This document shows, piece after piece, positions 1,390-60,300 of a stretch of 64,000 nt of DNA. Positions within the stretch are counted from its first letter, which is position 1. Each line of letters starts with the position of its first letter. The notes beneath the pieces were generated by a model. The model was not told where the DNA came from. It did not search any database and worked only from the letters and a program-made list of their open reading frames with translations. The stretch lies in the NCBI GenBank assembly GCA_963969365.1, contig OZ017749.1, positions 1,364,001 through 1,428,000 on the forward strand, read 5' to 3'. The stretch is from Asterochloris sp. CNOR1. Taxonomy: Eukaryota > Chlorophyta > Trebouxiophyceae > Trebouxiales > Trebouxiaceae. The position numbers and the translations under genes were made by a program.

Positions 1390-4300
1390 ATGCAGGGCCC
1401 TGCTGCTTTGCTGGGCCGTGGGCACCAGCACTTGGCGCCAAAGAGGGGCCCGCAGCAGCTCCTTCCGACAGTAGCGAGAACGGGCCTGAGACATGCCAAT
1501 TGTAGATCTGGATCCTGGAGTGCAAGAGCTGCAGGCAGGGCGCTTATGCGCTGCATGCCTCTGAGATACCCAATCCCTCACAGCTCCCGCTGACAGCAGC
1601 CTGCTCCCATACCTTGCAGCTGCGACAGAGGCCCCGCCAGCCAGCTTTGCACAGGTGCAGTCTGAGGAGCAGTTCTTTGGCCTCATGAAGAAGGGCATTG
1701 AAGCCGGGCGCATCCACAAGGCACTGCTCCCAGCCTTCCAGGACTTCTATGCCAACTACAAGGCGGCAGTGCTGAGCAGCCAGCGACCCGGAGCTGATGA
1801 GAGGCTCGTGGCGGAGATCATGGGCGCCATTGCAGACAGGTGCCAGAGCTTTAGCAGTGTTGGCACTGGGCAGCAAGCAGGACTGCATTGCTCTTGTTTG
1901 ACAGTACACCCTCTCGAGGTGCCAGTATTGCTGTGTGTGCCACCCTGTAAGTGGGGATGTGGGGGGTCAAAAAGGCCGCTCGCTTGGGAGCTGGGCTGCT
2001 GCCCTGCTTCAGCTGCAGGGAGTCTTGCATCGTTCTGGAGCTTTCCGACACCACCTTGGGTGGCTGAGGTGCTGCAGGGAGCGCTGTCTCTTGGCAAGGC
2101 TGATATGCGCCAAATGCTGCACTGCATGGAAGGCCTGTTGGGATGGCACTGCGCCTCAACACAGATTGTATGGCGGACATGGAGCAATGGGCAGGCAGGC
2201 GCCACCTCATGCCTGCCTATGCGGTAGAGGGGCCTCAGCAGGACGCTCGGGGAACAGGCCCTCAGGAGCTGGCTGCTGTGCTGGCTGCTGTATGTTGGTT
2301 GTGGCATTCAGCATCTTGCATGCGGTGCCAATACGCCTGTTGCAGGGGTATGTGTCAAGCAGATATGGTGTAGGCTCACAAAATGTCACTACCTGTGCAG
2401 GTCGGTGCACGAGTTTATCGAGCCCTACACCTTCCCCAGCTACCACACGCGCATCCTGGAGCCGTACAACTACTATGAGTTTGGGCAGAATTACGTCCGC
2501 ACGCTCATCAATTTTGAGACCTCAGTGGTGAGCATTGCAGGCAACTTGCGCTGTGTCTGCTGTGGGGGTATGTGGCTGCAGAGTTGCTTGAGCTCATTCT
2601 CGTGAATGTCTGAAATCGACACAGCAACCTCACCAGCCGCTGCACTGGTCATGCTGTGATTAGCGCTGTGATGCCAGAATTGGAATGTGCAAGCTTCTTT
2701 GGAGAGCTACTTTGCTTGCTGTACCGAATTGTTGCCAAGTCTGACCTGCCAGACCACTGAACTGCAGACGCTGGCCTGCTGCCTGCAGGTGGGCCACTTG
2801 GAGCATTTTGACGCCCTCCAGGAGCAGCTGCAGCAGGGGCACAACGTGGTGCTCCTAGCCAACCATCAGACCGAGGCCGATCCAGGGGTGTGGGCCCTGC
2901 TTCTGGAGAGGACGCACCCCCAGCTGGCCACCGACATCATCTATGTCGCAGGTGAGAGGTATTGCATGTTGCCAGCATATGAAGGGGTCCAGTGCAGCTG
3001 GGAGCCATGCCAGCCGAAGCTGGCAAGGGCAGCTGAGGGCTCTGGCCAGGTCTCGGCATTGCTGCTCCCTGCAGTCTCAGAGCATGCATGCCCGTAATGC
3101 TGCACTGAGATGCAGCTTCAAGTTGCCGCTTTTGTTGCTCAGCCAGAAAGGCGTGAGGTTCATGCCAACTTTGCAGATGGGCCTGGCTGAGTCAGTCACA
3201 GCACACTGACTCATGGCTGGGTTTTGCACCCACAGGTGACCGCGTAGTGTCAGACCCCCTGTGTAAGCCCTTCAGCATGGGTCGCAACCTGTTCTGCGTA
3301 CACTCTCGGAAGCACATGGACGACCAGCCAGAGCTCAAGGCTGAGAAGCAGGTGGGCGGCGTGGAACGGCATGGTGTGATGCAACGGAGCTCTGGTATGC
3401 ACAGCGGTGACATTTGCAAAGAGCAGGCCGCGGTTTCCGTCCTGCAGGGTGGTCAGCAGCCACAAAATGTCAGCTGCTACCTGCATCTGCTGCGCATGGC
3501 GTGCTCTATGTCTGTGCGATGCTGTGAGAGTCCCCAGTCGCTGGTGCACCCACTGCTCAGGCCTTGGCCCCCTCCTGCAGGCCACCAACAGGAAAACTGT
3601 GGCAGCCATGATGCGCGAGATGAACAAGGGGGGCAAGCTGCTGTGGATTGCCCCCAGCGGTGGGCGAGACCGCCCAGATTCTTCAGGTCAGACCCTCCTC
3701 AGCGCTTTCCCAGTCATGTTTGCCTGTCAAGCCATTTGCTGGTATGCGTCCAGGTGCTGCAAGGGGGTCCCTGCTGCAGGGCGGGGGCTGCCCCTCATCT
3801 TTGGCCTTGACAGACCGGAGGGGGATGAAACAGCGTCCCGTAGGAATACAACATGATTGTTGCGTACATCGTACAGGCGCTCAGCTGCACTGCTGCGGCC
3901 AGCACTACCTCTAGGTACAAACTGTCGGGCAGCCACTGCGTTGCTGAGTAGGTGCAGGATGTCAGTGATTCCTCTGCCTGGAGGATGGTATCAGCCTGCT
4001 TGACATGCTGCTCTGGTGCAGGGCAATGGCTGCAGCACTGCTGAGACCCGAGTGGGATCATCCTGCTGCTTCTGAGAGAGCAGGAAGCAAGTTTCACCTG
4101 CCGCTGCTGCTGCTGCAGGGCGGTGGCTGCCCCACAGCTTTGACGCTGATGCAGTGGAGCTGATGCGGCAGCTGCTGGCAAAGGCCAAGCACCCAGGCCA
4201 CCTGTACCCAATGGCTATGTGCAGCTGGGAGATCATGCCACCGCCCGAGAAGCTTGAGAAGCATCTGGGGGAGCGACGGCAGACCAAACATGCTGGCACA

Positions 4301-5453
4301 GGTGCGCAACCTGGTGCTGCTGCATATGGAGTGTGTGTGTGCTCATGGGTCTCTGAGATTTGCCACACAATGAGTGCTACAGGTAACCAGCACGCCGGCA
4401 CAGAATGCTCTGCTGCATATATGGTGTGTGCGCTTACTGATGCTGTGTCTGCGCCTTGATGAGTTACAGAGGTAGCGAGGCTGAGTGCATGGTGGGCAGA
4501 AAGACTTTATGGGTCTAGCAGGCTGCCTGCCTGTTCAGTATGCAGGGTGTGTGGAAGGTTGCATGAACATTGCAGTGCAAGGCATCTCAGCTGGCAGGTA
4601 TGCCAAGTAAAGACGATCACGCCTGCCCTCACAGACATGCACCGTGTGGCAGCAAAGGTCGCAATGTCAGCAGAAGTGCACTTTACTGTGCTGGGCATGT
4701 GCTGTGTGGCGGCCACGCGGTTGCAACTGTGCACAGCTTCAAGCGTGTTCTGCTGCTTGAGTACTGCAGCGCCCTGGAAGCAGTGCCCCCAAATTGCGTT
4801 GCAGACGCGCTGGCTGCCAAACATAAATCAGTCTCTGCTGATGCCCTTCTGGGTGCTGCAGGTCTGGGACACCACTAATGCAGCGCAGGTTACCCTGCCC
4901 TCCCTCGACGGCTGCAGGCATCGGCTTGTGTGAGGTGATGCAAGGGGCTTCTGACATTGCCCTTTGCGCTGCATTGCTTCCTGCTAGTTCCCCCTGTTGA
5001 GATGCTTGCACCATTGTCCCTCCCATGGCTGCAGGCATTTTCAGGTGGCCATCAATCAGGATTGTGGTGCATGCACTGACGTGTGCCCCCTCCTTGTGAT
5101 GGCAGGCATCGTCCTGTGCAGGGACTGGTTGGGACTGCCATCAATGGCGGTCTCCAGGTCCCGTAGCTGAGATTCTCCTCTGTACGCGAGGAGCTGGACT
5201 GGAGATGAGTGGGCTGCCTATATGCTGCATAGGTACTCACACCTCCCCTGTTGCAGGAATTGACCTGTGTCAGGAGCTGAATGTGGAAGCCATCATTGGC
5301 GCCTTTGACCCGGCCCAGAAGGTGCAGCGCCAGAAAGCTCTAGCACATGCTGCCTGGCAAGCTGTGCAAGGTGCCTACCAGGCTCTGGAGGGTGCCATTC
5401 ACAGCAGCGACCAACGGCAGAAAGAGTGCTACTCGCAGCCCTGGCGGCAGTAA
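1390..5453 (+). CDS. ATS1: Plastidial glycerol-3-phosphate 1-acyltransferase, multi-exon
   Basis: Transfers an acyl group from acyl-ACP to sn-1 of glycerol-3-phosphate, the first step of plastid glycerolipid synthesis. Conserved exons: 1621-1838, 2401-2526, 2789-2950, 3235-3351, 3581-3686, 4119-4307 and 5257-5453. The acyltransferase blocks appear in order: NHQTEAD (NHx4D, catalytic His/Asp), [12 protein letters not shown] (block II), [10 protein letters not shown] (block III) and a downstream IMPPP motif. Upstream, [19 protein letters not shown] matches the helical region typical of plant ATS1. Exon phases join cleanly, for example [16 protein letters not shown]. The segment from ATG 1390 is Arg-rich with no Asp or Glu, as expected of a chloroplast transit peptide, but the first splice is not certain. 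The C terminus ends QPWRQ, like the QPW ending of plant enzymes. Introns 3687-4118 and 4308-5256 carry splice-site echo repeats. Confidence 0.9.
3687..4118 (+). repeat. Acceptor-echo repeats in GPAT intron
   Basis: The true acceptor plus exon start at 4110-4140 (GCAGGGCGGTGGCTGCCCCA) has a near copy at 3774-3800 (GCAGGGCGGGGGCTGCCCCT) and a partial copy at 4018-4040 (GCAGGGCAATGGCTGCAGCA). Weaker TGCAG or TACAG acceptor-like points lie at 3875 and 3957. Successive acceptor points are thus 3779, 3875, 3957, 4021 and 4118. The first and last copies are clear by eye; the middle ones are tentative. Confidence 0.6.
4861..5256 (+). repeat. Acceptor-echo repeats before last GPAT exon
   Basis: The authentic acceptor reads TTGCAG|GAATTGACCTGTGT at 5256. 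Similar strings occur at 4917 (CTGCAG|GCATCGGCTTGTGT), 5034 (CTGCAG|GCATTTTC) and 5105 (GGCAG|GCATCGTCCTGTGC), so the start of the exon is echoed three times upstream at irregular multiples of roughly 70 bp. Confidence 0.5.
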
Positions 5454-5846: not shown

Positions 5847-8681
5847 TCACAGGCGGGCACCTGGACTGCTCTGAAGCGCCTCTTTCACCAGAGCAATGGC
5901 GTCACCTGCTGTGCCCCAGGCCAGGGTAAGGCCTGAGCCGCCATGCCCATAATTGTGCACCACAGGAAGCCTTTGGCTGCGGCCCTTCAGACTGACCTGC
6001 TCCAGCTTGATGCAAAGAGGCTCCCGGTACGGCCTCAGCCCTGCCCAGTCTGAGATTATCTCAGCACTGCGCAGGCTGGGCAATATGCGGCAGCAGCCCT
6101 CCAGGATGCGTTGTTTGTCCTGCACAGAATCCAGATGGAGGCAAGCCGCTGGGTTGTTGTGAGACTTGAGGCCCAGAGCCTGCACACTGCTGCATCAGAT
6201 CTGGAAGCAAAGCAGAAGGCAGTACACATGCCTGCTGATATTGCAACTTGTGCAAGCGCATGCCAAACGTTGGTGACCCATGCTGCTAGTCATTGCAGAT
6301 GCCATGTCTCTGGATGGCAAGCAATACCAGGCATCTTTTGCCAATGCAGCATTCATTTTCTAGCATGATGGCCTTTGCTCATAGATACTGCCACCAGCTA
6401 ACTGCCAGGATGCATGGCCATCACTAGAAGTCAGGCATATTTACACTCAGGGCAAGGCCCCCCTTTCAACAAAGTGCAGCCCTGGGTGGGCCATGCCCCT
6501 CTTCAAAGGGGTGGTTGGGTAATGGCCCTGATGTTGAAGCATTGTCACCAATTGCGACCCCCTTGGATCTGAATGTGGCCAGGCTGCCTCCATCCTCACC
6601 TCCTGGCTGACGGTGGTGTCCCAATTGCCCTTCTGTGTGGTGCCCCCAAGCACCACGCTGTCAGTGTTGGGTATGATGTAGTTTTCCATGTTTGCGTTCA
6701 TGTAGTGCTTCACCCAGGGAGCATGCACGCGGATCACTTGGCCTCTGCAGCAGCAAGGGGAGGCGTTGTGACCTGTAAGCTGCAGATTAGCACGATGAGT
6801 CCGAGCCAGCAAGCAGAGGCTGGCAGCTATCCAGCGCTGGCAGCCTGCACAGTTGATTTTGAAACACCTCTGAAATGACAAGATTAGCAGAAAGGTGTGC
6901 ATGCTGCCCCTGCAGGGTCCTGACTGCAGATGCACAAGCCTCAAACAGTTAGATAATGCTGCTGTGCCCTGGGGTGAGCCAGCTTTACTGGCAGAGCAAA
7001 GCAACAGATGGCTGCGCAGGGCCCTGCAGGGCCAAGGCCCCAGGAGCCTGCAGGAGTCAGCAAGCAGACGCCCTTTACAGTGTGCTCCAGTTCTTTGTGC
7101 CGCCAGAGGGACTGCAGCGCTCCAGCTGCAGATGCAATGTGGTGTCACAGCGCAGTGCCAGGGGTACTTACTGGGACTTGCAGGGCGGAGGCTTGACAGC
7201 ATGTCATGCAAGCCTGGCAACACTGCTGCAGTACACAGCATGAAGTTTTTGCCACAGGCTGAGGTGGCATCCTTGCAGGCCACATGCCCAAGCTTGTGGT
7301 TTGCTTTGCAGCGACGAGATGCCTCCTTGCAAGCCTGCTGCACCTGACAGGGACCATATTTTTATCGCTGCTGAAGAGCTTAAGAGACCCCAGCCCAGCG
7401 CAGTTGACCACAGCGTCGAAGTGCGCCAGCTCGTCAAGAGAGGCGACGTCTGCCTGCTGCACCCTGCCACCGGCCTGCAGTCACAGCAAGAAGCAAAGAT
7501 TGCTGGTGAGACACACAACCTCCACTTGTGTGTGCTCTTATACATTATGTGGAGCAAGGACGCAAACAGAAGCAACATGGATGCGCCTCTGCTTTGCACG
7601 GAAGCACATTTCTTGTGCGCCTTAGGCCTTTTGTGTGCAGTACATGCTCAGCGGTGGCAAGGTGCATGCAGCTGGAGTTCCACATCTGTGGGAGTGGGCA
7701 GCCCAGAAGACTCAGGCCAGCCACAGATGAGGCTGCTGCCTCCAGGCGCTGACAGCAGCAGTGCTGTTGTGGCAAGCTGCGCTATGCACAAGTGAATGGT
7801 GCTGCGTCTCGGCAGCACCTGCTTCTGGGCAACTTGACCAGAGCAGTCCAAGGCAGCAGCCTGCCCCTGTCAGTACCGTTCAGTGCTCTCACACACTTGC
7901 TTGAAGCGAGCCATGAGGTGCCGCAGGTAGCGGGGGGAGTCGCAGATGACGGTGGTGAAGCCCCAGCCATGCGTCCACTGTTGCTGCCCCCCAAACATGG
8001 ACAGCTCTGTTTGCGAAAGGTGCCTGAAGTGGGGCACCACATCCTTCCATATGGGATCAGGGGCAGGTCTCTGCAAGCAGCAGCCACGGTCTGTGAAGCA
8101 AGTGCTCCTGCTGGTGGCCATCAGGGGCAACAAAGCCTGTCAGGCAGTGGAGAGCAGTGGCACTGTCTGTGAGGCCAGCTGTGGCTGCTGGGCATGACTG
8201 CCACTGAGGCCTGTCAGGCAGCCACACAGCTGTGGCGTGGTCTTTGATGCCACTCATTTGAGCATGCACGGGCTGGTACCACATACCACACAAGCTGCAG
8301 CACATCACATGCAGGGGCAGCTCACATCCCACAGCTGGTAGGAGGACGTGAGTGCTGTGCCTGCCGAGCCAGCCTCAGGGGAGAAGTGGATTTTGAGCAA
8401 GTGCTGAAATGTCTCTGCCCCCCACCTCAGCACCAGCTCTGGGGGGGTCTCCCCTGCATAAGTGCAAGACACGTCAAATGTATTCAGCCCCTGATCTAGG
8501 ATCTGTTGCGTTGCTGCCCACCCAGGCTGTAGGGCTTCCACAGGCCACCTGCTCCATTGGAGGTGGTATCCTGGTCGAAAGCCTTGGCCACCAATGTCAC
8601 ATCAACTTCGCCCTCCTCTTGCAGGCGGACTGCTGTGGCCAAGCCCACGAAGCCGGCTCCCAGTGCGCAAACGTGCGGCAT
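5847..8681 (-). CDS. FAD-dependent D-amino-acid (or D-aspartate) oxidase, multi-exon, PTS1 C terminus
   Basis: Oxidatively deaminates D-amino acids to keto acids, ammonia and hydrogen peroxide. The first exon starts at ATG 8681 with MPHVCALGAGFVGLATAV, the GxGxxG dinucleotide-binding fold of the DAO family, and ends near NGAGGLWKPY. Later exons give WGAETFQHLL, DPIWKDVVPHFRHLS (8070 downward), DAVVNCAGLGS, RGQVIRVHAPWVKHYMNAN, YIIPNTDSVVLGGT (6745-6600) and, in the last exon, DWAGLRPYREPLCIKLE and VVHNYGHGGSGLTLAWGTAG. The GLRPYR arginine binds the substrate carboxylate in this family, and the HNYGHGG loop contacts FAD. The protein ends Ala-Arg-Leu, an acceptable peroxisomal PTS1 variant, which fits a peroxide-producing oxidase. 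D-Asp versus neutral D-amino acid preference cannot be decided. Confidence 0.9.
8071..8215 (-). repeat. Acceptor-echo repeats in DAO intron
   Basis: On the minus strand the authentic acceptor (TTGCAG|AGACCTGCCCCTGATCCC, boundary 8070/8071) is echoed upstream at 8136 (TGACAG|GCTTTGTTGCCCCTGATG) and 8210 (TGACAG|GCCTCAGTGGCAGT). Spacing is 66 and 74 bp. On the plus strand the repeat is easily seen as GCCTGTCAGGCAG at 8135 and GCCTGTCAGGCA at 8209. Confidence 0.65.
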
Positions 8682-10845: not shown

Positions 10846-13800
10846 ATGGTCAATGCTGAAATCCATGCAGGACCTCAGAGCACAGTGGTGCTCCCCAAGA
10901 TGAGCGACGATGCATGCCAACTGGCTGCTGAGCTGTGCAAAGAGGGGGCCCTGGCAGGTGTGGAGCCTTCGCTGGCACAGCGGCTGATCCATGCAATGAG
11001 ACAGCGCGATGTTGCAGCTGGGCAACAGCTCATGAGCGCAGGCGCTGCCGCAACAGCAGTCTGGCTGTTGCCACAAGACTCATGCAGTGGTAAGCCTCGG
11101 CATTGTCACCAAGGCTGCCCAGGCCACAAGCAGTGCTTTTGAGAGGAAAGCCTGCCCAGGACCTTATCACGTCTGTGCTGCAGGGCAGGGCCCAGGCCAG
11201 CCTGGCGGTCCCTTGATGCTGCTGGGCTGGCAGGAAGCCCTGACTCAACAGCCTGCTTCAGCCACCATCACTGTTGATGGGCCCACAACAGCACTTGCCA
11301 TCACCCCTTCAGCCTTCCTGCAGCTGCTCAGGGAGACACCTGCCCTGCAACACCACTTTGTGGTGGCAGCAGCTGCCGACTTCAGGCATGCTCAGGCAGC
11401 TCTGCAGGTGAGAGCTACGGCAAAGCTCTGGGCTCAGCAACTGTCCTGGCTGCGGAGGGCTGCCTGGGTGGCCCCGATTGGTACACATCTATGCAATCAG
11501 AGCTTTTCTTGACAGAGGTGGTGTGCTGGTAAGCAGGCCTTGCTGAGCAGCGCCAACCTGGTGGCCACAATCTGCACCACTGTAGCCCAACAATGGCATG
11601 TCTGCAGAATGGCAGTGGTGCCCTGCCGCTCTGGTAGGTGCCACTCTGCTTGGCAGTGCAGGCCACGGCCGCAAACTGAGACGGTCCTGTCTCTCAGCAT
11701 TACATCTGCAGGATGCAGCAGCGCCCTGCCTCCCTGCCTTACAGAACTCTGCATAGCAATGTAAACTTGCTGTTCTCAGGATGCAATGCTGCAGCCCGAC
11801 ATTAGAAGTCTGCAGGACCCTCTCTGCTCCTGGCGCCAACCTTTGGGCAGTGCGGTCCTGCTGGCCACTGGTGGCACCACTGCAAACGCACAATGGCATG
11901 CCTGCAGCAACGCAGCAATGCACATCAGTGCTCTTGGCGCCACCCTGCTGGGCAATGCCGACTTGCTGACCGCAGATTGCACCACTGCAAGCCCACAACG
12001 TCCTGTGTGCAGGAGCGCAGCCGTGCCTTGATGCCATTCTTGGTGCCTGCTCCCTCGTTGGGCATCATAGGCAATTCGTCGCTTGCAAAGCGCCTCAAGA
12101 ACAACATCCTTGCCGCTGCACAGGACCCCGGCAGGTGCAGCATGCTCTGGCCCCTGCTGCTTTGCACATTGAAGACAGGGCAGGTCCGTCATGCATGGGT
12201 GGCCTGCAAAGACGAGCATGATCATGTGCCTGGCGCTGCACACAGGATGCACCTCCTGTCAAGATCTGGCAGCTCTGTGTCCAAGTCAAGCAAGTGGCAC
12301 CAGTGGCTTGGCCTGAAAAGAAGAGCAGGCATTGGAGTGCAGGCCAAATGTACTGCGTTTTCCAGCAGGCTGCAACCTCAAACCCGGATGTCTGCAGGCA
12401 CCCTGTGCTGTTGGTTGGCGAGCCAGGCTTGCAGAAGCGTTCCATTGCAGCGCTTGTGCACTATGCCTCAATAGAGCAGCACAAGCATCCTGTTGTGGGG
12501 CTTGATGCTAACACCATGGGCAAGGACTGCGGGGCTCTTCTGGGACGTGGGGGCCACACCGGGCTGCTGGAGTGGTTGGGGAATGGCACCCTCATCCTCT
12601 CTAACACCCAGCAGGTGAGGGAGCACAAGCTGAGAGCCACCCTGTTGGGCAGAGACTGCGGGACGCTTCTGGCCTGGGGGAGGCTGCTGCCTTGGCTTGG
12701 GGACAGCATGCTTATCCTCTCCAGCACCCAGCAGGTGAGGGAGTGGGGGCTGGAAGCCAACATCTGGGCAGAACTTTGAGGTGCTGCTAGGGGCGCGGGG
12801 ACCATGCCTGGCGCTGCCGGCTTGCCTGGCACGCACTTCTGTCCAACCCCCGACACCTGAGATGGCAGTGTCTGGCTTTCTTTGCGTGTCAGGCACATGA
12901 AGACTGTGGATCCTGTTCATGTGATGCTGCCTATCTGAGAGGCAAACAGCTGTCCAGCTCTGACCAGTGTTTGATAAACTTAGGGGCAGGAGCTGCAGGG
13001 TGCAAGGGCATCCTGCAGCTACATACTGTCAAAGACTCAGCTGGTGAGTTGCAGCCTTTGCTTGAGATGCAAGGTCTCTCTGATGACTAGTGGCCAGCCT
13101 ACAACACAGCCTGAAGGCAGTCTCAGTTTGTACCTAATGTGGGAATTTGTAGCCGTCCCTGGTCCATGTAATCGACCACACATTGGGACAATCCATTTCA
13201 TGATTTGATTGTCGCCTCAGCATGCATCTGTGCATTTGCACTGCCGCCGCAACGCATCAGCTGCAGCTTTGCCAGCTGAATGCTCAATGCTACAGACCGT
13301 TGCCAGCTGGGTGCCTGCTGCTGCAGGCCAAGCCAGAGCTGGTCCTCCTGTTGGGCAACCTACTTCGAGAGAAAGCCCTGCCCAGTGGGCAGCCCTGCCC
13401 GGCCAGATTTGTGTTTACAGCAGAGGCGCCTGTGGAATGGCTGGCTGAGCTGTGCACGGTCATCAAGGCAAGCATCTTGACGATGTCCTGCACTCCTGCC
13501 TGACTTCTCAAGGATCTGCCACTGCAATGTGCTCAAGCTGCCACAGACATAGACAGTAAGAACGCCAAGCCTTCTCCTCCAGACAATGAACCGCAAGGCT
13601 GCCATATACAGCTGCCTTGCTGCGCACACACTGCAAGATGGGGTGGCAGCGCCCTGCATCCCTTCACTGCCTGATTAGATAGACTACACCAGAAGATGTT
13701 CAAGCTCCTGAGAGGGTGTTAAGTTCTGCCACCCGCAGCCGCACTCTGCGATGCCCTCCCAGGTTCATTGCAGGTGCCTCCCCTGCGGGTGAGACCCGGG

Positions 13801-19623: not shown

Positions 19624-20039
19624 CAGCAACCTGCAACCCCCTGCACTGAAAGCCCTGCGCCTTGGATAGATTTCGACTTTGTGATCTGCTTGTCCTGGAG
19701 GCACTCTCAAAGGGTGCCACTAACCCCCATGTTTTTGTCATCGTGCTGTACAGTGCCCAATCTGTCTCCTGCCCTTCAATATATGCCTGCACCCATTTCA
19801 GTCTGCAAGTCTGCAACTTTTGATCAAACATTCTGACCTCGCGTACCATCGTACCTCTGCCACATGCTGAGTTCTGGCACTGCGATTCAATGATTCATGA
19901 GCCAGCTTCTTCCTGCACCAGGAGACCGAAATAACGAATACAAACATTATGCCCAGGCTTGCGCAGGTGGACTGCCACCCATCAGATAGGAGCCTGTGGG
20001 GTTCTTCAGGGGACTTACAGCCAAAGAGAGCGTGCCGCG
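19624..20039. other. Intergenic, 5' flank of UXS
   Basis: No gene seen. It holds the 3' flank of the AAA+/FeS gene and the upstream region of UXS, including an AT-richer stretch at 19920-19950 about 100 bp before the UXS start. Confidence 0.4.
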
Positions 20040-23000
20040 ATGAACAAAGTGCCCAGTGCAGATGGACTGGAGCGCCCGGTGAGCCTCGATCTGCAGTGCG
20101 TCTTGGCAGTTGTGGATCCATATTGCAACTGAACTGCTGTGTCTTGCCGTTTGCTCCGCCTGTCTTGCTGTCAGCTGCCACGACATCTGGCGCTCTGCAG
20201 GCAAAGCAAGCATCCATGCAGCAGGGCAACCACCCTGCCACACCTGTGAAGACCAAGCCTCGCATCGAACGTAACCGCGTCCTGGTGACTGGAGGCGCAG
20301 GATTTGTTGGCAGCCACCTATGCACCTTCCTTGTGGAGCGTGGTGACCATGTGTGCAGCTTGCCCGTGGCCATTTCCCTGCTTGGAGGGGTCAGAACCTG
20401 ACTCACATAACGCTTGTTGGCCTGGCGATATTGCTTGCCAAGACACCCCTTCAAAGCTCGGGCTAGTCTGTCTGCATAGGCAGCCCGTCAGGTAGAGCTC
20501 GGCACTGGGCAGGGTCCCTACCCACAGCTGCCTGCGGGGCTCTGTGCCCCAGCCACTGGTGTGCCTGATGGTAGCACCCTCAGGTGCCTGACCCTTGGCA
20601 CCTGATCCTTGGCAGCAACAGGTCCATGCAGAGGGGCCCGGACACGCACTTCTGCAGAGGCTTCCCATGCTCCTGCATGAAGGCCCTACTCACATCTTTG
20701 CGCTCTATAGCCTGATAGCGCAGGTGATCTGCCTGGTGGGCTGGAGCAGGGATGGGCTGCAGCCTGTGGTGTCAGGCACAATGGGGCGCTCACACCTGAT
20801 CTCAGCTGGGATCTCAGTTGTCTGGCTGCGCAGTTGATCTGCTTGGCAGGACTTGGTGGCACAGGGCTTGGAACCTCAGCCAGGCCCACGAGAGGTAGGG
20901 CAAGAGCGGCCAGGAGTCAAAGCTCAGCCCTTCACTTGACGAGGCTCGAATCGCTGCTTGGCTTGTGGTGCAGGTCATCTGCCTGGACAATTTCTTCACG
21001 GGCTGCAAGGAGAATGTGTTGCACCTCATTGGCAAGTCCAATTTTGAAATGGTGCGCCATGACATCACAGAGCGCATTCTGCTGGAGGTGGACCAGATCT
21101 ACCACCTCGCCTGCCCAGCCTCGCCCATCCACTACAAGTGAGCAGGCTTCATGACGCAGCAGGACTAGGAGTAGGCACGCGGCCCCAAACATGTTGACAG
21201 CCTGGGCGCCCTCACCTGAGGCAGGACATATATATCCATCCCAGGCTGGGCTGTGTTATCTGATGCATCTCGCCTTTCAGCAAGCCATGCTCTCCACATC
21301 AACGCTGCAAGAGAAGCTCTTTCTTAATGCCATGTTTGCCTGTCTTTGGGACTCCTCCAGGGCCATCGAGGCCTGTCACCAAACAGGTGGCTCGCACTGT
21401 CCCGACACGCGCCAGAACCAATGGCAGGCACTGTCCTTCACCAGCCAGAACCTGCCTGCCAATGCTGCGGCGCTTGCTGCAGATTCAAGCACACGAAGAC
21501 TTGTACTGTGCAGCAGTGCAAGGCGGCTGTAAATGGCCATCAGCCATCTACGTTGCTGGGTGGGCCTGCTGCAGGTACAACCCCATCAAGACAATCAAGA
21601 CTAGTTTCCTGGGCACTATGAACATGCTGGGCCTGGCCAAGCGCACCGGGGCACGGTTCCTCATCAGCTCCACATCTGAGGTCGGCAAGAGTTCTTTTGG
21701 TGATCTGCTGTTACTAGCGAGGAAGCTTGCAAGTTTGCTGGCCGCTTATCAGCTCCACCGCTAAGGAAGGCTAAGATGTCTGGGGACGACCACAAAGAAT
21801 TAGCCAGATTTGTGTCGCACCTGGCAATGCTTGCTCTACATCTTGACAGTGGAAACCCTGCTGACAACAGTGGGGTGCCGAGGCAGTGCAGCTTCTTATC
21901 AGCTCCACCAGCAGTGTCAGCTGTGATTTAGAGGCATGTTGTGGGGTGAGCAACACATGGATTTGGACCTGGCTGTTGACGAGGAGCAGTTGGTATGACA
22001 GTGCTGTCGCCTCGTGAGACCCATGAACTCTGTCAGGGTGATCAGGTCGTCCTGCAAAGGTCTTGCTTTTGACAGTGGTATCCCTGGCGTGAGCAGCAAC
22101 GTGCTTCAAGACTGTGCTTTCCATCAGCTCGCTTATCTGGCTTGTTCAGCAGTCTTACCCAATGTGCGTGGACAAGTGAGGTGCTGTGTAAGTGGCTTGC
22201 TCATCTGCTCCACCAGGCAGGTCAGCAGGCAGGGCTGCCCATGACAAACATACCAACACCATGGCCAGCACCTGCCTTTTGCAGCTGATGGCTGCTGTGC
22301 CCACTCAAACCTGCTGCTGTGCCTGCTGAACCTGCTGCTGGGATATGGTGCAGCCTGGGTGGGCACAGCCTGCAAGGCAGGGCTGAACCTGCAAGGCAGG
22401 GTTGCTGCTATCCCACTGGAGGTACACCACTCCAGCTTGCCTAGACCTGACCAGCACTATCCCCATACAGCCTGCAGCTCTGCATAACAATGCGGCCTCT
22501 GACAAGGTGTACAATAAGCACCTGAGGCCTGCTGCCCTGAGCTGTCCTGGTTGAGTTGTGAGGTGAGCTCACTTTCCACTGCCAACTATTGCAGGTGCAT
22601 GGCAACCCATTGCATGACCCTGTGATTGAGGAGTCTCCCGTACAAGGTACATCTCAGACTGCAGTTGCAGTTGCTGAGTGGCCCTTGCCCAATCTGCAGG
22701 TCTACGGCGACCCTCTACAGCACCCTCAGACTGAGAACTATTGGGGTAATGTCAACCCGATTGGCGAGCGCAGCTGCTACGACGAGGGCAAGCGCGCTGC
22801 AGAGTGCCTGGCCTTTGATTACCAGCGCGAACACAACTTGGAGGTGAGACACCGCATGCTTTGCCCCTCCCTTGTGGGAGCGGCCGCAGCGTGGGGATGC
22901 AGCAGTGTTACGGCCTTCGACATGCAGCGCAAATGCAACCTTGGAGACTAATGGTGCTCAACCTCAAGACACCCCTCCCACCTAGGCAATGCTCTGATTG

Positions 23001-24600
23001 CACCTGCTCATTGCCAGTGCCTGTGGCCAAGGCATCAGTGCTGAGCAACGAGTGGCCCTCGAGGACACAGGCCTTGCTGGGAGGGGACTTTGCTTTAACT
23101 CAATGCTGTGGATGGCAGGCCTCTGCACAAGTGACTATCTTGCCCATCTAAAGTGCCTGCCTCTTCTGCACATGGTGGTGCACGTCTTGAACACCTCTGA
23201 TGTAGCTAGTTTAGTTTTGAAGGTTACGCTCCACCCCTGCAGATCCGGGTGGTGCGCATCTTCAACACCTATGGGCCCCGTATGGCACTGGACGATGGCC
23301 GCGTTGTGAGTAATTTTGTGGCCCAAGCCCTCATGGACCAGCCCCTCACCGTGTATGGGGATGGCCAGCAGACACGCTCCTTCCAGTATGTGTCTGATCT
23401 CATCAGGGGTGAGGCTGGGTGGTGCATTTCTGCGCAGTCTTACTCATTTGCCCAGAATGCACATGCCTTCAGCAGCTCCTCATCAGAAGGCCCTAAGATT
23501 CCTCAGAGTGATGGTAGCTTGTGCCAGGCTGCACCGCCACTCACTGTGATGGAGACAGCCACCAAACCAGATCCTTCCAGTGGGTGTCTTCAGGGGTGTG
23601 GCTGGGTGGCGCCACTCTGCCCAACATCTCTGCACAGCCACTCTGTGGCCCCAGATTGTGCGTGCAGTCTGTCGCAGGGCACTTCCACAGTGTCCATTGT
23701 GCTCCTGTCCCCTGCGGTATTGTCACACCCTTCCAGGATTGCGGTGGGCCTTCAACTGACACAGTCTTCCAAGTTTTTTACGCTGATATTGCTAGAAACT
23801 GCCTGCAGGGTTGGTGGCCGTGATGGATGGCCCTGAGACTGGTCCCTTCAACGTAGGCAATCCCACTGAGTTCACGATGCTGGAGCTGGCAGAGGTGGTC
23901 AAAGAGGTTGTCAACCCCCATGCAAAGATTGTGTACAAGGAGAACACTGCAGACGACCCATCTAAGAGGAAGCCAGACATCACCAAGGTCTGTCGGCCTG
24001 TCTGGAATACGAGGCTCGAGGAAGGGTTTCCAGGTCCACTGTGAGGGATTCAGCTGCAAGCTGTGACAGTCTTACTGGGTCCTGCAGCCTGCTAGCAGCC
24101 GGCAAGCGCATTGCAAGCAATCAAATTCCAGGATGACATGGGGGATTGGCCATGCCAACACGTGCCAGCCTGCTCAAACAGAACTTCAAGGCCTGTCAAG
24201 GATGCTGTGGCTGTGCTGCCACTGCCTCTGTTGTGAACAGGCCATTGCTGATCTGAAAGTCCTCCACGCTGCAGGTCAAGAAGGCTCTGGGGTGGGAGCC
24301 AAAGGTCTCTCTGCGTGAAGGGCTGGCACTCATGGTTGAGGACTTTGCCAAGAGGCTAGGGTGAGAGATTGCTATTGTCAGCATTGTAGATGTATCTGCC
24401 ATATGTTGACCCTGCACGCATTGCCTGGCAGCAACACAGCACATCTGCCTGCCTGGTGTCTGGCTCTTGTTGCAGATAATGACACCTTTGTCCCAGCACG
24501 TGCTCTCCATCTGCATGGCACCAACCTCAACCTTTTCTGCCTCTGCAGGGTATCTGTGAAGAACAACCCTGAGGACACCCTAAGAAAACTTCAATCGTGA
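20040..24600 (+). CDS. UXS: UDP-glucuronate decarboxylase (UDP-xylose synthase), cytosolic type
   Basis: Converts UDP-glucuronate to UDP-xylose by an NAD-dependent oxidation/decarboxylation. Nine exons join in phase: 20040-20078, 20201-20350, 20974-21137, 21575-21680, 22700-22843, 23243-23408, 23809-23987, 24275-24360 and 24549-24600. Motifs in order: [10 protein letters not shown] (NAD-binding GxxGxxG), [38 protein letters not shown] (catalytic YxxxK), [10 protein letters not shown], and [18 protein letters not shown]. The C terminus ([26 protein letters not shown]) fits short-chain dehydrogenase UXS proteins. There is no N-terminal membrane anchor, so this is the soluble class, like plant cytosolic UXS. 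The start ATG at 20040 leads a 13-codon exon. Its substrate is the product of the dehydrogenase at 36154-40698 on the same strand. Confidence 0.93.
21660..22290 (+). repeat. Donor-echo array in UXS intron 4 (period about 75-85 bp)
   Basis: The exon end CTCATCAGCTCCACATCTGAG (donor boundary 21680/21681) is echoed through the intron as CTTATCAGCTCCACCGC (21745), CTTATCAGCTCCACCAGCA (21895), CCATCAGCTCGCTTATC (22121) and CTCATCTGCTCCACCAGG (22200). The AGCTCC core starts at 21666, 21751, 21901, 22125 and (as TGCTCC) 22206. Gaps of 85, 150, 224 and 81 are close to 1, 2, 3 and 1 times 75-85 bp. Confidence 0.65.
22592..22740 (+). repeat. Pseudo-exon copy of UXS exon 5 start
   Basis: The acceptor plus first codons of exon 5 (boundary 22699; [13 protein letters not shown]) has a diverged copy 105 bp upstream (boundary 22594) that could encode [13 protein letters not shown]. 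About 24 of 39 bases agree without gaps. Only the downstream copy joins a conserved exon. Confidence 0.65.
23335..23620 (+). repeat. Donor-spanning copy of UXS exon 6 end (187 bp apart)
   Basis: The exon end and donor (GGATGGCCAGCAGACACGCT, CCTTCCAGTATGTGTCT, then GGGGTGAGGCTGGGTGG; boundary 23408) recurs in the intron at 23548-23610 with GGAGACAGCCACCAAACC, CCTTCCAGTGGGTGTCTTC and GGGGTGTGGCTGGGTGG (boundary 23595). A decayed intermediate lies near 23500. Confidence 0.75.
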
Positions 24601-44074: not shown

Positions 44075-44234
44075 AGCAGCCCATCACCAGAGCTGAGGGC
44101 TCAGTGATTTTCTGCATGAAACACAGGCAAATTGCAGACAAGTAGATTGTCTGCCTTGGTCAGTGATTTCATTGAAACGCGTTTGCAGGCGCTGCTGTGA
44201 TGCAGCATCCTTTCAGGAGTCCAACAGAAATCTA

Positions 44235-47200
44235 TCATGAGGACAACATGCCACTGGCTGCCCCAACTGGCTGTGCCTGCTGAAGGCCATCCTGATGATG
44301 GACATCCCTGTACAAACCGTTTGAGTGGATGTAATCAATGATGGCGTCTGGTGTCAGGTACTTGACTGAGTGACCCTGCAGCAGCATGATAGCAGCATGG
44401 CATCTGGGAGTCATTGAAGCTGGCTTAGAGGTGGCCAAGACTTTGCCAGATATGCACTGGAGGGGCCACGCCAGCCTGATGGAACTGCCTTGCATGCCAT
44501 GCAGTGTGCTGACTGCTTGCCAAGATGTGGACACAGCAACTCAGTGTCAGCAGCTAGGCGGCAGGTGCAGGCGAGGCGATGACAGCCTTGGGAGCTGCCT
44601 AGGCTTGTCATGAAGTGCGCTGGCTGGTTACCTTGGCTAACTCATTGCGTACAGATGTGGAGCTGATGCTGCTGGTGACCGGGTCTGTGACAATGTGCAC
44701 CCTGTCACGATGCTGCCACAGCAGGGAGCCCTCCTTCTTCAACAGAGAGGCTGCATCTGTGCTGTCCCTGTGGACAAGAGCAGGACAGTCTCCAGCATGT
44801 GTATAGCACAACACAACTGGTGTCCCTCAGCATGTGCCAACTGGCCAAGTGCCTGTCTGGCAGCTGAGGCTTGCTGTGGGGCACCAGACCCAGAGGCACT
44901 AAGCCTGACTACAGAAATGAAGGTGTCAAGATTGAGTCATCCCAGCTGCTGCCACGGTGAACGGAGTGCGACCCCACATGCTGCAGTAACATCCAACAGG
45001 AAACCCACCTGGCGATGCAGACAACGCCATGCTTCCCCAGGATCTCCTCCACATGCTCAGGAAACCAGACCCCAGGCTTGATGAATGACTCCAGCATGTC
45101 AGCCCCGCACAGCAGCATGGTGGTTGCGCCACCTCTGCTGCCAGGCTCTACATGCTTTGCAGCATCCTGCTCAGGCAGCGCCGGAGGCTTCGGCCGGCGC
45201 TGGGTGTCCTGCACATGGTGCCAGTAATGCTACTGAATTTTTGATCAGCTGGGGTTAGCTGTGAAAAGCAGGTAGGCAGAAGCCCCATAGCCGCGCTGCA
45301 TCCTGGAGAGTCACTGACCTGCACAGGCTCTGCAGGCATTGCCTTGCCACTACGCTGCCTCAATGAGTGATGTTTGAGATCAACAGCTTGAGAACTTGAA
45401 AGCAGCCAAGCGTTGATGCAGACTGCTTGGTGTGCATGCTGCAAGCTGCCTGGCCTGCTTTTGCAGCAGTCTCCATCCTGCACAGCAAGAACACTATGCC
45501 GGGTAAACAGGTGCACTCTCTGTGAGCTAGTTGTGATCCCAGCACAGATGCAGCCAGCCAACCTGCCAGCCAACCTGCCAGCCAGCCTGTTGTGCACGCA
45601 TATGCGCCTTGACAAGACAGCACTGCAACAAAGCTGCAGGCCTGCTCGGCTGACAAGGCGCCCCAGCACAGGCAAACGGTCCTTGCGATGATCTTGCTTG
45701 TGCCTGTACCCAAGCCTACACTCAAACCTGCACTGAAGCAGACGCACTAGGCAGACGAGCTTACCTCACACCAGCAGGCACAGTCACGCAGTCCTTGAGA
45801 GGAGTTGGCGGTTGCCTGCACCCAAGCTTGCACCCAAGCAAGCTCACCTAGCAAGCTATCTGCTGCGCACCAGCAGGCACATTGACACACTCCCTGAGAG
45901 AAGACTGCAGGCGCCTACACCCAAACCAATGGGCAGCCCACTGCGCACCAATGGGCACAGTCATGTGATCACCAAGAGTGCCCTGCCTGAGCCTCCATGT
46001 CAACAAGCCCACCTCACGGGCAGCCTGCTGTGCGCTGTGCCTCGCCTCCAGGTCTGCCAAGTTGTCCAGGAAGCTGCCTGAGCGCAACACGCCCGGCGCG
46101 CGTGTGTTGCTGTCCAGTCCTGACCTGCTTGGCAGGACACGAATCTGCTCCTCACTCCCCCCCGACTCGGCCTCCGGCCTCTGCGCGTGGTCCCCCCGCT
46201 CCCCTCTGTCTGTGTCGCTGCTGGGGGAGCTGTGCAGGGCTGGGGGGCACGAGGGGGCTGCGCTTGCCGCCGCCTGGGCCTGCTCCACCTCTGCAGTAGA
46301 ATCCCAGGCCGGAACGTTGCTGAACGGCGACTCAAGCTTTGAGATGGGGATAGCGGCTGGATGCGAGCTGGCGAAGCGCCGCGCAGCGGCACAGATCCCA
46401 TCTGTGGCCTGTAGCGCTGCTGCTGCCTCGGGTTCTGCCTGGCTTTTAGCGGCAGTGGTGCCACTGCTGCTGCCCTGGGGGCTGGGAGAGCCCTCTGCAG
46501 CGCCCTGCGGAGCAGCAGCAGGCTGGGAGCCATCTGAAGCCGTCTGCTGCGCATGCTGCTGATGAGCTTGGAGCAGGGCGGCCTCCACCCGCCGCAGAAC
46601 GAGCAGGCTGCGCTGAGCCTCCGGCTGGGCGGCCTCCCAGGGATCCACCATCAGGCGGGGGTGGGTGCTTGCGGCTGCGCGACACATCTGCAGGCGGTGC
46701 GCTGCCGGCAGTAGTTCTGGCTTGATGTAGGCATCATTCACTGGGGACATGTAGCCGCCTACCACAAGGATGCCCCGCTGCAGCAGCAGACGGGTGTGAT
46801 CAGTGCCTGCCAGCTGCTGCAGCAAAATGTAGCTGTAGGGAAGCAGAGCCTGCACAAGAATGGCCTGCTGGAGCAGCAGAAGGGGTTGCTCATTGTCAGC
46901 CGCAGGGTTCCCAATCAGCCACCTTGGGCAACCATCATCGGGCCCAAGCAGCCACCATGGGCCACATCTGTTGCTACTACACAACCACCATCTTGCAAAC
47001 CCAATCAGCCACCGTGAGCCACCTCAAGGTGGGCGTAGGTGTCTGATTGCAAGGTGCCGCTGTATTCAGCTGTTGCCGTGCCCATCACAACAATGCCATG
47101 TCTGGATGCACAGCAGCTTGGCTGCAGCTGTGTGCATGCAGACAAACAGAGCCCCGGTGGAGGTGCATTAATGGCGACACAGGCAGCCATTCAACGGCCT

Positions 47201-53506: not shown

Positions 53507-56500
53507 GTGGACGAGTGGCTGCACCCCTTCCGTCCCTCCCTCAGCGCGCGCGACATTGTGACCTTCAAGCACCCAGAGTGGTGGTCAGCCACTCATGACG
53601 GGCATGCCAGGCTGCCCCTGTTGTTCAGCCTGGGCGGCCAGCTGCATTTGCACCCCACCATAGCAGAGACGCCAGATGGCCTCATTGTGGAAGCCAACAA
53701 CTACACGGTGAGACTCTGTACACCAGCCGGGGGATTAGCCTTTGGGTTGCGCAGGTCAGTGAGCAGGCTGTGCTGAAGAACCAGCAGGCGCCACTCCAGA
53801 ACAGCTTGGCACGGCTTAGACATGCACTCGGCTGGCATGTCCCTGCAGCCACACGAGCAGAGGACACCAGTCTGGCTCCAGTGATCTGCTTGCTTGTGCC
53901 TGCATGGCTGAGGCCTGCAAGGAGCCAGCCCTGGCGCCTGCTGCAGCTTGGGCAGCTCATGTCTGAGTGTTTGCCGGGGGTGCTGTGAGGCTCAGTGGCA
54001 GACCCTGGCTCTTTGCGCTTCACAGCTGCAGAGCATATGTCGGGCGCAGCGTGCCATGTTGCTGAAGCCAGCTGCAAGCTGTGATGCATGTTGCTGCACG
54101 ATGGGCAGCTGCTGTGACGGCACTGCTTGACCTGTGCGGCAATACTTGCACTGCGCCAGCTTGAACTCCCTGCTGCCTCTCAAAAATTGTAGTGCACTTC
54201 AGGGAAGGGGCAACATGGGCTGGTTCCACATCAATGTCCTGAACGAAGTCATGGAGCAGGTGGCCTTTGACGACTTTGTCTTGGCATCAAGCCCGTGTGA
54301 GTCAGCCAGCTTGGCACCTCACAACTTGTGCAGCCAGATCTTCAAGGCATGGTGCAGCTGCCTGCTCAGCCAAGCTGTGGCCAGCAAGTGCCAGCAAGCC
54401 ACATGACTCTGTGCTGGCTGCCAACTGATGTGACAAATCATTTGTGGCAGATGGCCCTGCCTGTGCAGCTGGTCACGTGGCACAGTATGGCTGCGTAAGA
54501 GACCAGGCCTGCAGCTGCATGCAGTTTTGGCATGCCACAGCCTTCACAGCTGCATACAGTTTTGATGTGAAGGCTGTGCTTGCAGATGCGATGCCTATGA
54601 TGGGACATCTCCAGCCAAAATTCCCCTACCTGTCCTGCTGCAACCGGCGAGGGTTCACCTCCACGCTTCTAATACCCTCAGATCTGAGGCCTGCTCAGTT
54701 TCTGGAGCAGCCCCTGAGGTCTGGTGCTGACGACGCCCGTGATCCGCGAGCCATTTTCCTGGGCAGCCCCACAGGTGACTTGGCTGCAGGCGCTAGACAG
54801 TTGCAAGACCTCTCTGTGGCTGAGGCCACTGCCCCAGGACCCGCTGCTGGCGTGCGGCTGATTGCATTCATGAGGAAAGACAGGAGAGCCAAACACTGCC
54901 CTGCCTATCGCCACAGCTGCCGTCGGTGTGCAGCATGTTGACGATGCGCCTGGCATGTGCCCATGCAAGATGCTTGTGACCTGGCAAGCTGCGTGCTGCA
55001 GCTGCATGGCAGGGGGCAGGCAGGGGTCGGTGCCCAGGTGAGGTGGTGCCAAATCCACTCTGCCTGCATGCTGCAAGCTGGAGTGGAGCTGATGAACGCC
55101 ATGGCCCCCATCAGGCTGCCTGCTGCTGTGATGTGTGTTGTGCCAGCACTGCAGAGCGCTGCACTCATTCGTTCAGTGCTGCTGCAGGCTGGGAGAATGG
55201 GAAGCGGCGAGCGGTCTGTCGGGCCGGTGCTGCGCATCCCGATGCCCTGTGAGTGTCTGCTGCTCAGCACACTCAATGCATACTTTAGGACGCTCTCCCA
55301 CACCTGCTGGCAGTCGCTGCTTTACCTACAATGGCACAGCTGGCAGTTATACGTTGATGGACTACCACTCAAACACAAGGGTTCGCCTTGAGTTGGTCCT
55401 TCTGCATTGCTGGGGGTGAGGCCAGCACTGCTCCACTATCAGCAGCTGGTGCCTAAGCAGTGTCATCTGCAAACACATGGGGCGCCATCTTGCCCATCGG
55501 CTGAGGCAGCCAGCATGCAGTGTCATCCGCAGACACAGGGGCGCAACCACAGCCAACACCCAATCTGACTCACCCTGCCTGGCCTGCTAGGTACACTGGC
55601 ATCACCACATCCCATATTGACGGGAGGACCGTGGACAGAGAAGAGGCCAAGCTATTTGTCAAGGAGGGGCAGACACTGCAGTGGCAGGTGGACCACTTCC
55701 AGCACATTGTGAGTACGCAGGACCATTCAAAGATCAAGCAACCTCAAATGGGAAAAGGCAGCTACCGCAGGGGCAGCTGCACGACTTCCACCGCATGGCG
55801 AGTCTTTAGCACTAATCAAATGAGGGCATCTTACTAATGGGCAGCTGGGCGCCTACTGCAAAGCGCCAGCCTGGTGTTCCGTTCTTGCGGGCTCTGGGGT
55901 GGACCACGTTAGCACATTGTGTGTCCAGCACCTCGTGCCACAGACTGAGCTGCCTGCAACATATGGCACAGGCTGCTGAGTCTTCTGTCCTGACTGACAG
56001 GTCCAGTGTTGGCCTGCATGGCGCATTCAGAAGCCTTCCCTGTAGCTGCGCATTCCTGGCAGGATGGAGCGATGTCAAGGCTGTGCAGACCAGCAAACGC
56101 AGGCTGAGCTGTGCATTCAGGCCGCGCCTGGGCCATGGTTGGGCAGCATGCTATGCTGCATTGAAAGCAGCCTACTGGGTCCAGGGCCTGAAGCACTTGC
56201 CGCCTGCTGCAGATCTATGCAGATGGGCACTGTGGGGCACTGCGCCAACGCGACTTGCTGAGCTCAGATGCCACCGTGCTATCCCTCATCAGCCTGCATG
56301 AGATGTGGTTCACCCCTCTGCTGCTGCCGTGGTGAGCTGCCGTCCCTCTCAAGATTAGTGGCACTGTTGCTGGGCTACCCTGGCTGTGAACCCTACATAT
56401 GAGAACACTCTTCCTGAACCAGGCAATTGCTGCTTGCCGTCTCCGGTAGGATGCCTGTGCTGAGCCAGGCTGGCAGCTCTTGTGGTGCCCTCAGCTGCTC

Positions 56501-57301: not shown

Positions 57302-60300
57302 TCAAATACAGGCTGTGGAGGCACCCAAGTCCTGGAATGCTATCATGCCAAGTCCTGTGCTGTTATCAATTGCAAGCAACAGCCTCTGTTGAAGGTACTC
57401 TTTGTCCTGCAGGGGCCAGCACAGCGTAACAGATGCAGCAATTGCAGGCCTGGCTCCAGGCAGCAGCAAAGCATCAGACCACAGCCACAGGCACCAGACC
57501 CCCGACCTTGTAGTCAGGCAACATGAGGTGGTTGAAGCAGGTGTGGGCGCTGGGTCAGAGTGCGGGCCTGCCCTGCTGATGGTGAAAGGAGGCTGCAGCT
57601 GGGCGAGGCCTTTGACTGGCACACGATCGCTGCCAGTTGCAAAAACCAGGAGCCTGCAGGTTGCAAGCAAGCAATCCTGTGGGTTGTTGAATTTGGCAAC
57701 TCGCCAAAGATCAGCAGAGCCACAGTGCATGTCAGGACAGCCGTAGCTGCAGGTGTTGTGGGCGGTCCACTAGCAGCAGGCACTTGCGCTTCTCTTCCCC
57801 GCGGAAGGCTTGAAGTACCTCACAGAACCACCTCACAACCTGCGCACAGAGGACGGCGCATCAGCTCTCACTTGCAGGGCTGCAGCACAGTCTGCAACGT
57901 AAAGTCGCTACTGCCTGCGCCGACTCAGAGCTGCCAGGGCAGACGCTCTCACAACAGCAGCAGCCCAGCATGGTAACATCTCCTTGTCATGGCTCACAGG
58001 CAGGTGCTACCAGCCAGGTGGCTCCGTGCACCCGCCTGGCGCAGGTGGTCGGCTCCCTCCCAGCAGGCAAGTATGCCAGTCACCCCTGCCTCACTGTCTG
58101 CTGTGTGGCCACCCTCAAGGCGGGGCTCTGCCTGCAGCTGGAGGTTGTCCAAGTGGGCCAGACTTTGACAATGTCCCCCCAATGCCAGTCCCTAAAGCTG
58201 GCCAATGAGCCTACCAAGCTGTCTGCTGTCTGCCCGTCACTGTGGAGGCCTCCTGCCTTTGGCTGGCCGACGTCCAGCTGGCATCAATTCTGACTGCACC
58301 CTCTGACTGCCAGTCCCCTGCATCAGTCCATGAGCCCACCTGGCTGTCTGCAGTGTACCCGTCATCATAGTGGGCGCCGGCCTGCAGCACGAGGGTGTCC
58401 AGGTGATGACTGCCGCACACCAACTGCTCCAATTCCTCAGCCCGGAATAGATGCATCACTGCCCTGTTGCACAGCTGCAGCAGGCCACAAAGGGTGATCA
58501 TCAGCCTATCTGCTCTTGTCTTTCCTACATGTTTCGTGAGGACCGTCACTGCGCCCTTGCGTGACTGCAGCAGCTGTGCTGCACGCCTCAACAGATGTGA
58601 GTGCTACATTGCAAAAGCAGCTGCCTTTCACAGCTTCAGCAGGGCAGTAGGGTATACCCTTACAGAAAGGCTGTCACAGAGTGGCAGGGTGGGCGAGCAG
58701 CGGGACTGTTTGCCATCCACCTGTGCAGTCTAGCCCTCAAAAGCCGCTTGGGATCAGAAAGCATGCCCGTGGGTCGAGCCCAGGGCCCAAAGGATGCAGA
58801 GTGAACAATAGCATATCAGCGTAAGCAAGACGCCATGCCTACTTGCTCTGCACAACGATATCCAAGAATTTTAGACAGCAGAATTTGGCTGGGGACCTGC
58901 TGCTGCATCAGGTGCCTGCAGACGCTGTCTGAATCTGCAGCTGACGCGCTGCCATGCCTATGCAAAAAGCTCCAGCCAGCAGAAAGGGCGCCTGCACTGT
59001 TTGGGGTAAGCTTTCTGAGACAGACGGGTGCTGCATCTCAGCCTGCGCCCAATACACAGGTGCTGCTCTGATTAAGACTCCTCTGCCAACCCCTCCATAT
59101 GCCAAGGCTCACCTGCCAAAAATTCCAAACCAATTCAGGCCAGCAACACTTGCACAGCCTAAACACTCACCTCTTCTGAGTGCAGCTGGCTCGTCAGGAA
59201 TGGATGCTGCAGGGCAGGCTAACATCTGGGCGCTGCATCTCAGACTGCACTAAGGTGCACTTAAGAAAGACGCGCTCCCCACAGAGAGCCACCAAAGACA
59301 AGTGTTCCGCAGAGAGTCACCAGAGACACATCCGCCACAGAGAGCAAGTCTGACACAACCGCCTGAATCGACAGGAGCAGGGAGCTCTGCAAAGCTGCCG
59401 TCAGCAGCTCACCTGGCGCCATCCTCGGGCAAAAGAATCAAACTGGGGCTGAATGGATGTGACCAGCAGGTGCTTATGGTACAGATCCACATACTGCCGG
59501 CGGTTGTCAGTGTCCACAGCCACATCAGCGCCTCCTGGCTGCAAGTCCACCAGCTCTGTGCCCTCCCCAAAGTCAGCCTCCTGCTCAACCTGCAGCTCAT
59601 CGCCACAAGTGAGGGACTGGGATGCTCCTTGCAGTGTGCTTCTGTCTGCTGCCCATATTGTGCTTCTGCAGAGGTCCGCTCCTCCCTCGACCAGCAGCCC
59701 ATTGCAGCACCTGACTGCTCTTTGCAAACGACACTCCCAGCGCCAACAGACAGCCTGACAGATTGACAACGTATCAGCTGTGCATGCGGCTCCCCTGGGT
59801 GCTTGCATGGGCTGCAGTTCGCCTGCTCCGCCTGCAGCAGGACCAACAGATCTGAGGTTCGGACTGGCATGCTCAATTGGGCTTCCAGGGGCATGCTGCT
59901 GTTGCCCCAAGTCTGCCTCCCCAAAGTTTGCCTCGTGCTCTGCCGGCTGTACACTTGAAGACAGGGACTGAGAAGCTTTGGGGGTTGCTGTCCTGGCTGA
60001 TTGTGGGCCGCACTCTGCCTCCCATTCCTGACAATACGGCGACGGACAGGGTGTGGGTATGAGCCTCAAAGCTGGCTGCAGCTGCTCATATCTGCCTGCT
60101 CGCTTGACTTGCAGCGCACTGCGGGAGGTGATGGGACAGGCTTATGTGCAATTGGCTCCTGCTGGCATTGTGCCTCTGCGTCAAAGTCAGCAACTTGCTG
60201 GCACCAGAGCACACAGCCCGCAGCTGGGAAGCTTGTCAATGGCCTCTCTGGCAGATTGATCACGGCTGTCAGTGACAGCACCCAGACAACACTGTGTCAG

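Follow-up and report, generated by a model that had tools for sequence, protein, structure and literature searches.

Degenerate direct repeats across exon-intron borders in Asterochloris and their probable origin by local tandem duplication

A 64,000-nucleotide stretch of the genome of the green alga Asterochloris sp. CNOR1 (contig OZ017749.1, here C4, 1364001-1428000; hereafter the window) contains genes in which pieces of an exon edge recur, in worn form, inside the neighbouring intron. The copies are direct and in tandem order; one holds the real splice site and the other, which we call the echo, lies in the same intron. Predicted proteins are recognisable as GPAT (with a GPAT_N domain), DAO, AAA+/Sigma54, a cytidylyltransferase, and HECT, and a UXS gene lies next to the AAA+ gene. 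In our view the echoes probably go back to old tandem duplications of local sequence, mostly of 75-150 bp and placed regardless of splice sites, whose second copies have since decayed.

Genes and repeats of the window

The genome comprises 56.4 Mb in 21 contigs, and the counts given here refer, unless the window is named, to a sample of 351 kb: the window, 140 kb of contig C10, 50 kb of contig C1, and 30 loci around protein-kinase matches. Genes were modelled with a purpose-written two-strand hidden Markov gene finder, trained on the same 351 kb and blind to repeats, which gave 63 genes and 693 introns with a median length of 255 bp. Every training seed was treated as lying on the plus strand, even though minus-strand matches occurred at 12 of the 25 loci used; retraining converged. 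Known errors are the fusion of the AAA+ and UXS genes and the calling of a GPAT echo, 3780-3839, as an exon. The splice consensus of the predicted introns is CAG/GTGAGC at the donor and CTGCAG/G at the acceptor. The acceptor is very rigid (T 90% at -5, G 94% at -4, C 98% at -3), and GC donors make up about 7% of predicted donors.

The initial annotation had named 11 junctions in the window as borders spanned by repeats. The gene finder agrees with it on the splice site at 10 of them (4118, 5256, 8070, 12012, 21680, 22699, 23408, 46012, 58339, and 59589). The exception is 12614, where it picks the echo donor 120 bp downstream instead. Each junction was tested with a 60-nt window against its own intron, the null being 1000 draws from introns outside the window, and 9 of the 11 have a significant echo, so that the existence of degenerate direct repeats at these borders is confirmed (Table 1). 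Position 46012 was weak as a donor echo (p = 0.049), the stronger signal being at the other end of the same intron, acceptor 45816. The repeat assigned to 8070 does not span the junction; it begins a few bases inside the intron and ends about 6 nt from the acceptor. Two further junctions, at 55708 and 62633, were additional to those named before.

Table 1. Repeats found at or near predicted splice sites; positions are counted from the first base of the window.
Gene and feature	Position	Strand	Copies and lag	Score	p
GPAT, acceptor 4118 and exon start	4110..4172	+	3771-3834 (lag 339), 4007-4049 (lag 96)	57, 45	<0.001
GPAT, acceptor 5256 and exon start	5242..5301	+	~5089-5149 (lag 153)	43	<0.001
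DAO, intronic tandem repeat, not junction-spanning	8076..8252	-	8076-8177 / 8153-8252 (lag 77)	66	0.21 (junction 8070)
AAA+, intron array; final copy contains real acceptor 12012 and exon start	11538..12047	+	11538-11642, 11844-11921, 11943-12047		0.006
AAA+, exon end and donor 12614; in-frame copy with donor 12734	12517..12807	+	lag 120 bp	95	<0.001
UXS, exon end and donor 21680	21660..21695	+	~21745-21781 (lag 85)	35	<0.001
UXS, acceptor 22699 and exon start	22686..22735	+	~22580-22630 (lag 106)	35	0.005 (second draw 0.012)
UXS, exon end and donor 23408	23334..23436	+	23530-23623 (lag ~196), also in C10 paralog		0.001
NMNAT, two copies across acceptor 45816	45714..45926	-	45714-45827, 45814-45926 (lag 100)	85	<0.001
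Donor 55708 and exon end, with echo (additional)	55668..55820	+	lag 89	56	
HECT, copies across donor 58339	58075..58405	-	period ~125		<0.001
HECT, acceptor 59589 and exon start	59557..59603	-	~59659-59705 (lag 102)	30	0.002
Donor 62633 and exon end, with echo (additional)	62476..62667	-	lag 79	79	

It had also been claimed that in every clear case exactly one copy fits the conserved protein. This was checked at 12614 only, and there it holds: when the second copy is removed, the Pfam match to Sigma54_activ_2 rises from 25.9 to 33.1 bits and also lengthens, which favours 12614 as the donor. The result bears on the idea that the gene models are at fault and the echoes represent genuine second exons, used either alone or alternately. 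The GPAT echo called as an exon speaks for that idea, as do 10 of 642 neighbouring exon pairs that are similar to each other. However, the domain at 12614 fits better without the copy, 26 of the 30 kinase-domain matches lie at least 80% inside predicted exons on the correct strand, and most echoes are too worn to have been maintained by selection. We therefore regard second exons as a very unlikely explanation.

Prevalence and placement of the echoes

Gapped self-alignment of the 351 kb gave 270 degenerate local repeat pairs. The long sequences, 254 kb in all, account for 195 of these; two order-5 simulations of 254 kb yielded 2 and 1. In the window, 31 ungapped self-similar pairs score at least 18, and five order-4 simulations gave none. 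Exon windows pass the threshold in 7-10% of cases against their own intron and in at most 0.2% against other introns. The simulated sequence and the cross-intron controls rule out chance similarity from a TGCAG-rich background, the objection against which the initial annotation had asked to be checked. A minisatellite array was also rejected, since there are mostly two worn copies and Tandem Repeats Finder detects few of them.

For the junction statistics, 669 of the 693 introns were kept; introns without 130 bp of flank were left out, as was a large gene for a repeat protein on C10. About 3.9 kb of that gene (offsets 85500-93000 from 2050001) shows a 63-bp period, and exon-exon repeats are numerous. 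The 669 introns hold 103 junction pairs, so the phenomenon described for a handful of genes stands and had been understated in scale. When the best pair per junction was taken, 84 junctions in 78 of 678 introns were found, 49 of the 84 with a lag of 75-150 bp; a few of these best pairs adjoin the border without crossing it. Taken modulo 3, the lag favours remainder 2 (in 36 of 73 echoes), for which we found no explanation and which may be chance.

The position of the echoed sequence was mapped by sliding 40-nt windows across each junction and searching for them in the junction's own intron. Windows reaching 10-20 nt into the exon were echoed in 7.2-7.3% of cases on the donor side and 7.6-9.6% on the acceptor side. 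Intronic windows from +20 onward gave 0.4-2.6%, and exon windows at -60 gave 0.9% and 0%. Echoes of the exon end occur in the downstream intron (35/379) and not in the upstream one (0/390); conversely, those of the exon start occur in the upstream intron (30/390) and rarely in the downstream one (2/379). The cross-intron control for these two positive classes gave 3/379 and 2/390, mid-exon windows gave 1/379 and 0/390, and inverted echoes gave 0-1 match in each of six test classes.

The intron side of the junction was also duplicated. A gapped match continues into it in 29% of donor echoes and 17% of acceptor echoes (controls, 5% and 0%); in the remaining echoes, the intron half has decayed or was never included. 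Ungapped comparison had suggested sharp echo limits at the splice site, as if copying were bounded by it, and these limits mostly disappeared under gapped tests and simulation.

The echoes could in principle mark the birth of introns, by tandem duplication of an exon piece according to the AGGT model of Rogers or by introner insertion. The CAG/G core common to donor and acceptor is what such an origin would use. However, the expected signature is nearly absent from the introns examined: the upstream exon end was found at the intron 3' end in 1 of 482 introns and the downstream exon start at the 5' end in 3 of 482 (controls, 0.07% and 0.21%). Two introns searched for in the genome proved to be single-copy, and among the introns of the 351 kb there were only 12 similar pairs, 10 of them between UXS paralogs and 2 between nearby C10 introns. 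An origin of this kind is thus highly improbable, and the earlier view that no dispersed element is involved is borne out.

Decay, age and origin of the copies

The UXS gene offers a measure of decay. It alone is duplicated, its neighbours not, with one copy at 20019-24889 of the window and the other at about 2110293-2115324 of C10; the two are 78% identical, introns included. Seven of the nine predicted exons are 91.6-96.5% identical and the other two 80-81%, and the introns are 74.9-80.6% identical, with 0.278 substitutions per site and 0.057 indels per substitution. Exons evolve about fivefold more slowly than introns. The C10 paralog also has a lag-106 acceptor pair, and the echo of 23408, being common to both paralogs, predates their split.

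These data also bear on whether selection maintains the echoes as functional decoys or as alternative splice sites. The echo donor 12734, which is in frame and was chosen by the gene finder, would suit such a role. However, the UXS echo is 75.8% identical between the paralogs and its intron 76.6%, so there is no extra conservation, and splice dinucleotides in echoes are retained at the neutral rate (GT in 17 of 38, AG in 14 of 35; about half expected). Echoes decay neutrally, with no sign of function in the tests made, on one gene and on splice-dinucleotide counts, and a selected role is very unlikely.

From the repeats, their placement, their specificity to each intron, their neutral decay and the lack of young copies, we infer the following order of events. 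Duplications of roughly 100 bases would land at random, without regard to splice sites. Those internal to exons would usually be purged, and those inside an intron or over a single exon-intron border would be tolerated, the latter because the outermost splice-site copy still yields the same mRNA and the intron only grows. The intron copy would then decay at the neutral rate, with the exon copy maintained by selection. Since the exon copy would be held in this way, exon-edge echoes would outlast most intron-intron copies of the same age, and the repeats would look aimed at splice sites.

This scheme was simulated with duplications of 108 +- 30 bp, placed uniformly, rejected if internal to an exon, and then aged with an exon rate of 0.22 of the intron rate. 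A burst at 0.35-0.40 substitutions per site reproduced the exon-edge peak together with about 1% echoed inside introns, as observed, whereas ages spread evenly over 0 to 0.45 gave 8-10% inside introns. With the burst at 0.35 and a duplication rate that we tuned to fit the data, the model gave 17.3 junction and 3.4 intronic pairs per 100 introns; the real values are 15.4 and 5.5, or 3.3 intronic pairs at lags of at least 75 (22/669). Exons being slower than introns, a duplication remains recognisable longest in its exon half, which explains the focus on splice sites. The model further predicts more echoes beside slow exons, and this was borne out: they occur at 14 of 61 junctions of kinase-domain exons and 23 of 293 others (p = 0.0018), and by quartile of coding score at 4/266, 14/264, 29/264, and 30/263.

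The initial annotation had proposed instead that duplication is aimed at splice sites and that introns lengthen as their own junctions are copied time after time. The raw exon-edge peak agrees with this. So does the excess of acceptor echoes (42, with 26.6 expected for random placement over the sequence) with a deficit of intron-intron pairs (38 and 71.9), as does the rarity of lags below 75 bp among junction pairs (2/103, as against 15/37 intronic pairs; p = 1.6e-8). However, random placement with unequal decay reproduces both the peak and the ratio of junction to intronic pairs, and simulated junction pairs also seldom have lags below 75 (10/337 in the 0.35 burst). We therefore consider aimed duplication unlikely, while the other part of that proposal, local direct duplication across splice sites, specific to each intron and followed by decay, is supported.

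Nor do introns appear to be growing in this way now. Steady duplication predicts about as many intronic as junction pairs, with 25/145 and 21/145 (14-17%) at 90% identity or more; at that level the real data have no pair at all, among 103 junction and 37 intronic ones. By our reasoning, loss of young copies cannot explain the gap, because under constant births survivors can only fall with age. None of the seven inserts of at least 12 nt between the UXS paralogs copies its own flanks, including the longest (201 nt, at the 3' end of the C10 copy). The ages of the copies suggest an episode in the past rather than continuous duplication. It is possible, although we hold it only tentatively, that one past genome-wide episode of about 100-bp duplication gave about one-fifth of present intron DNA and then nearly stopped, that exon edges keep its record, and that only copies with less than about 60 nt of exon survived selection on splicing. 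In the fitted model each intron, with a mean length of 261, has accepted 0.66 duplications on average and gained 73 bp from them.

Several observations weigh against random placement in a single old burst. The exon part of the echoes is shorter than random breakpoints predict (median 45 and 62 nt; lags 75-150, KS p = 8e-6), as aimed duplication would have it, and the model echoes windows at -60 in 5.2% and 6.7% of cases, against the 0.9% and 0% seen. This misfit could come from gene-finder bias, with long echoes called as exons (compare the similar neighbouring exon pairs above), from selection against copies with much exon, or from breakpoints near splice sites. Mean identity is 0.740, against 0.705 in the fitted burst, and ungapped identity beyond the splice site, 0.28-0.30, is slightly under that of the oldest simulation (0.35). 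In the C1 region (C1 1000001-1050000), 115 introns contain only 2 junction pairs, a much lower share than elsewhere (8/103, 37/298, and 37/177). Outside the repeat-protein gene, the 351 kb contain five pairs of at least 90% identity. Two of them, short ones of 24 and 33 nt, pair exon with intron and fall outside both the junction and the intronic classes; of the other three, two are essentially intergenic and one is a 12-bp microsatellite. Finally, the ratio of exon to intron rates comes from one gene pair, and the gene models are predictions.

How introns lengthen is rarely visible in sequence, intron DNA being too quick to decay. If exon edges are the conserved halves of old duplications, intron growth becomes countable and datable from one genome, and if the single-episode reading is true, exon-edge echoes would serve, in any genome, as a general means of dating intron growth. 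A caution follows as well: unequal decay alone can make repeats seem attracted to splice sites, and claims of such an attraction need a decay control.

Relation to known systems

Human introns reportedly arose from tandem arrays, as Zhuo and others are said to have described in PNAS in 2007. The AGGT model of Rogers resembles the present case in that local tandem duplication exploits the likeness of donor and acceptor; it differs in that its signature was not found among the 482 introns tested here.

The initial annotation knew of no named description of such repeats. The accessible part of the literature already holds a single border-crossing duplication (PMC4974935) and, as a named mechanism, internal gene duplication (PMC3443670). 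As far as the available text of the first report goes, an intron of the potato RdRp gene came from one tandem duplication crossing the intron-exon border, whose unit comprised the 3' side of the intron and the 5' side of the downstream exon, with both splice contexts copied (PMC4974935). The border-crossing tandem unit, and the small formerly exonic piece turned intronic, are alike in the two systems. The potato case, in the same excerpt, is one gene with a recent new intron, whereas here we have many genes, old lengthening, and both donor and acceptor sides (PMC4974935). Internal gene duplication, in the portions of the sources open to us, is likewise a common within-gene tandem duplication that reaches over exon-intron structure; the stress there is on new introns, whereas here the copy is intron filling and no new intron is inferred (PMC3443670, PMC4974935). 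Introners, according to the accessible part of their description, also shape introns in algae among others, but as dispersed near-identical copies, whereas each echo here matches its own intron only (PMC9860276). In the literature within reach, with most subscription papers outside it, we found no report of such prevalence, of the age signature, or of a genome-wide record of exon-edge echoes. Judged by the parts of these sources available, single border-crossing duplications and intron gain by duplication are already in print.

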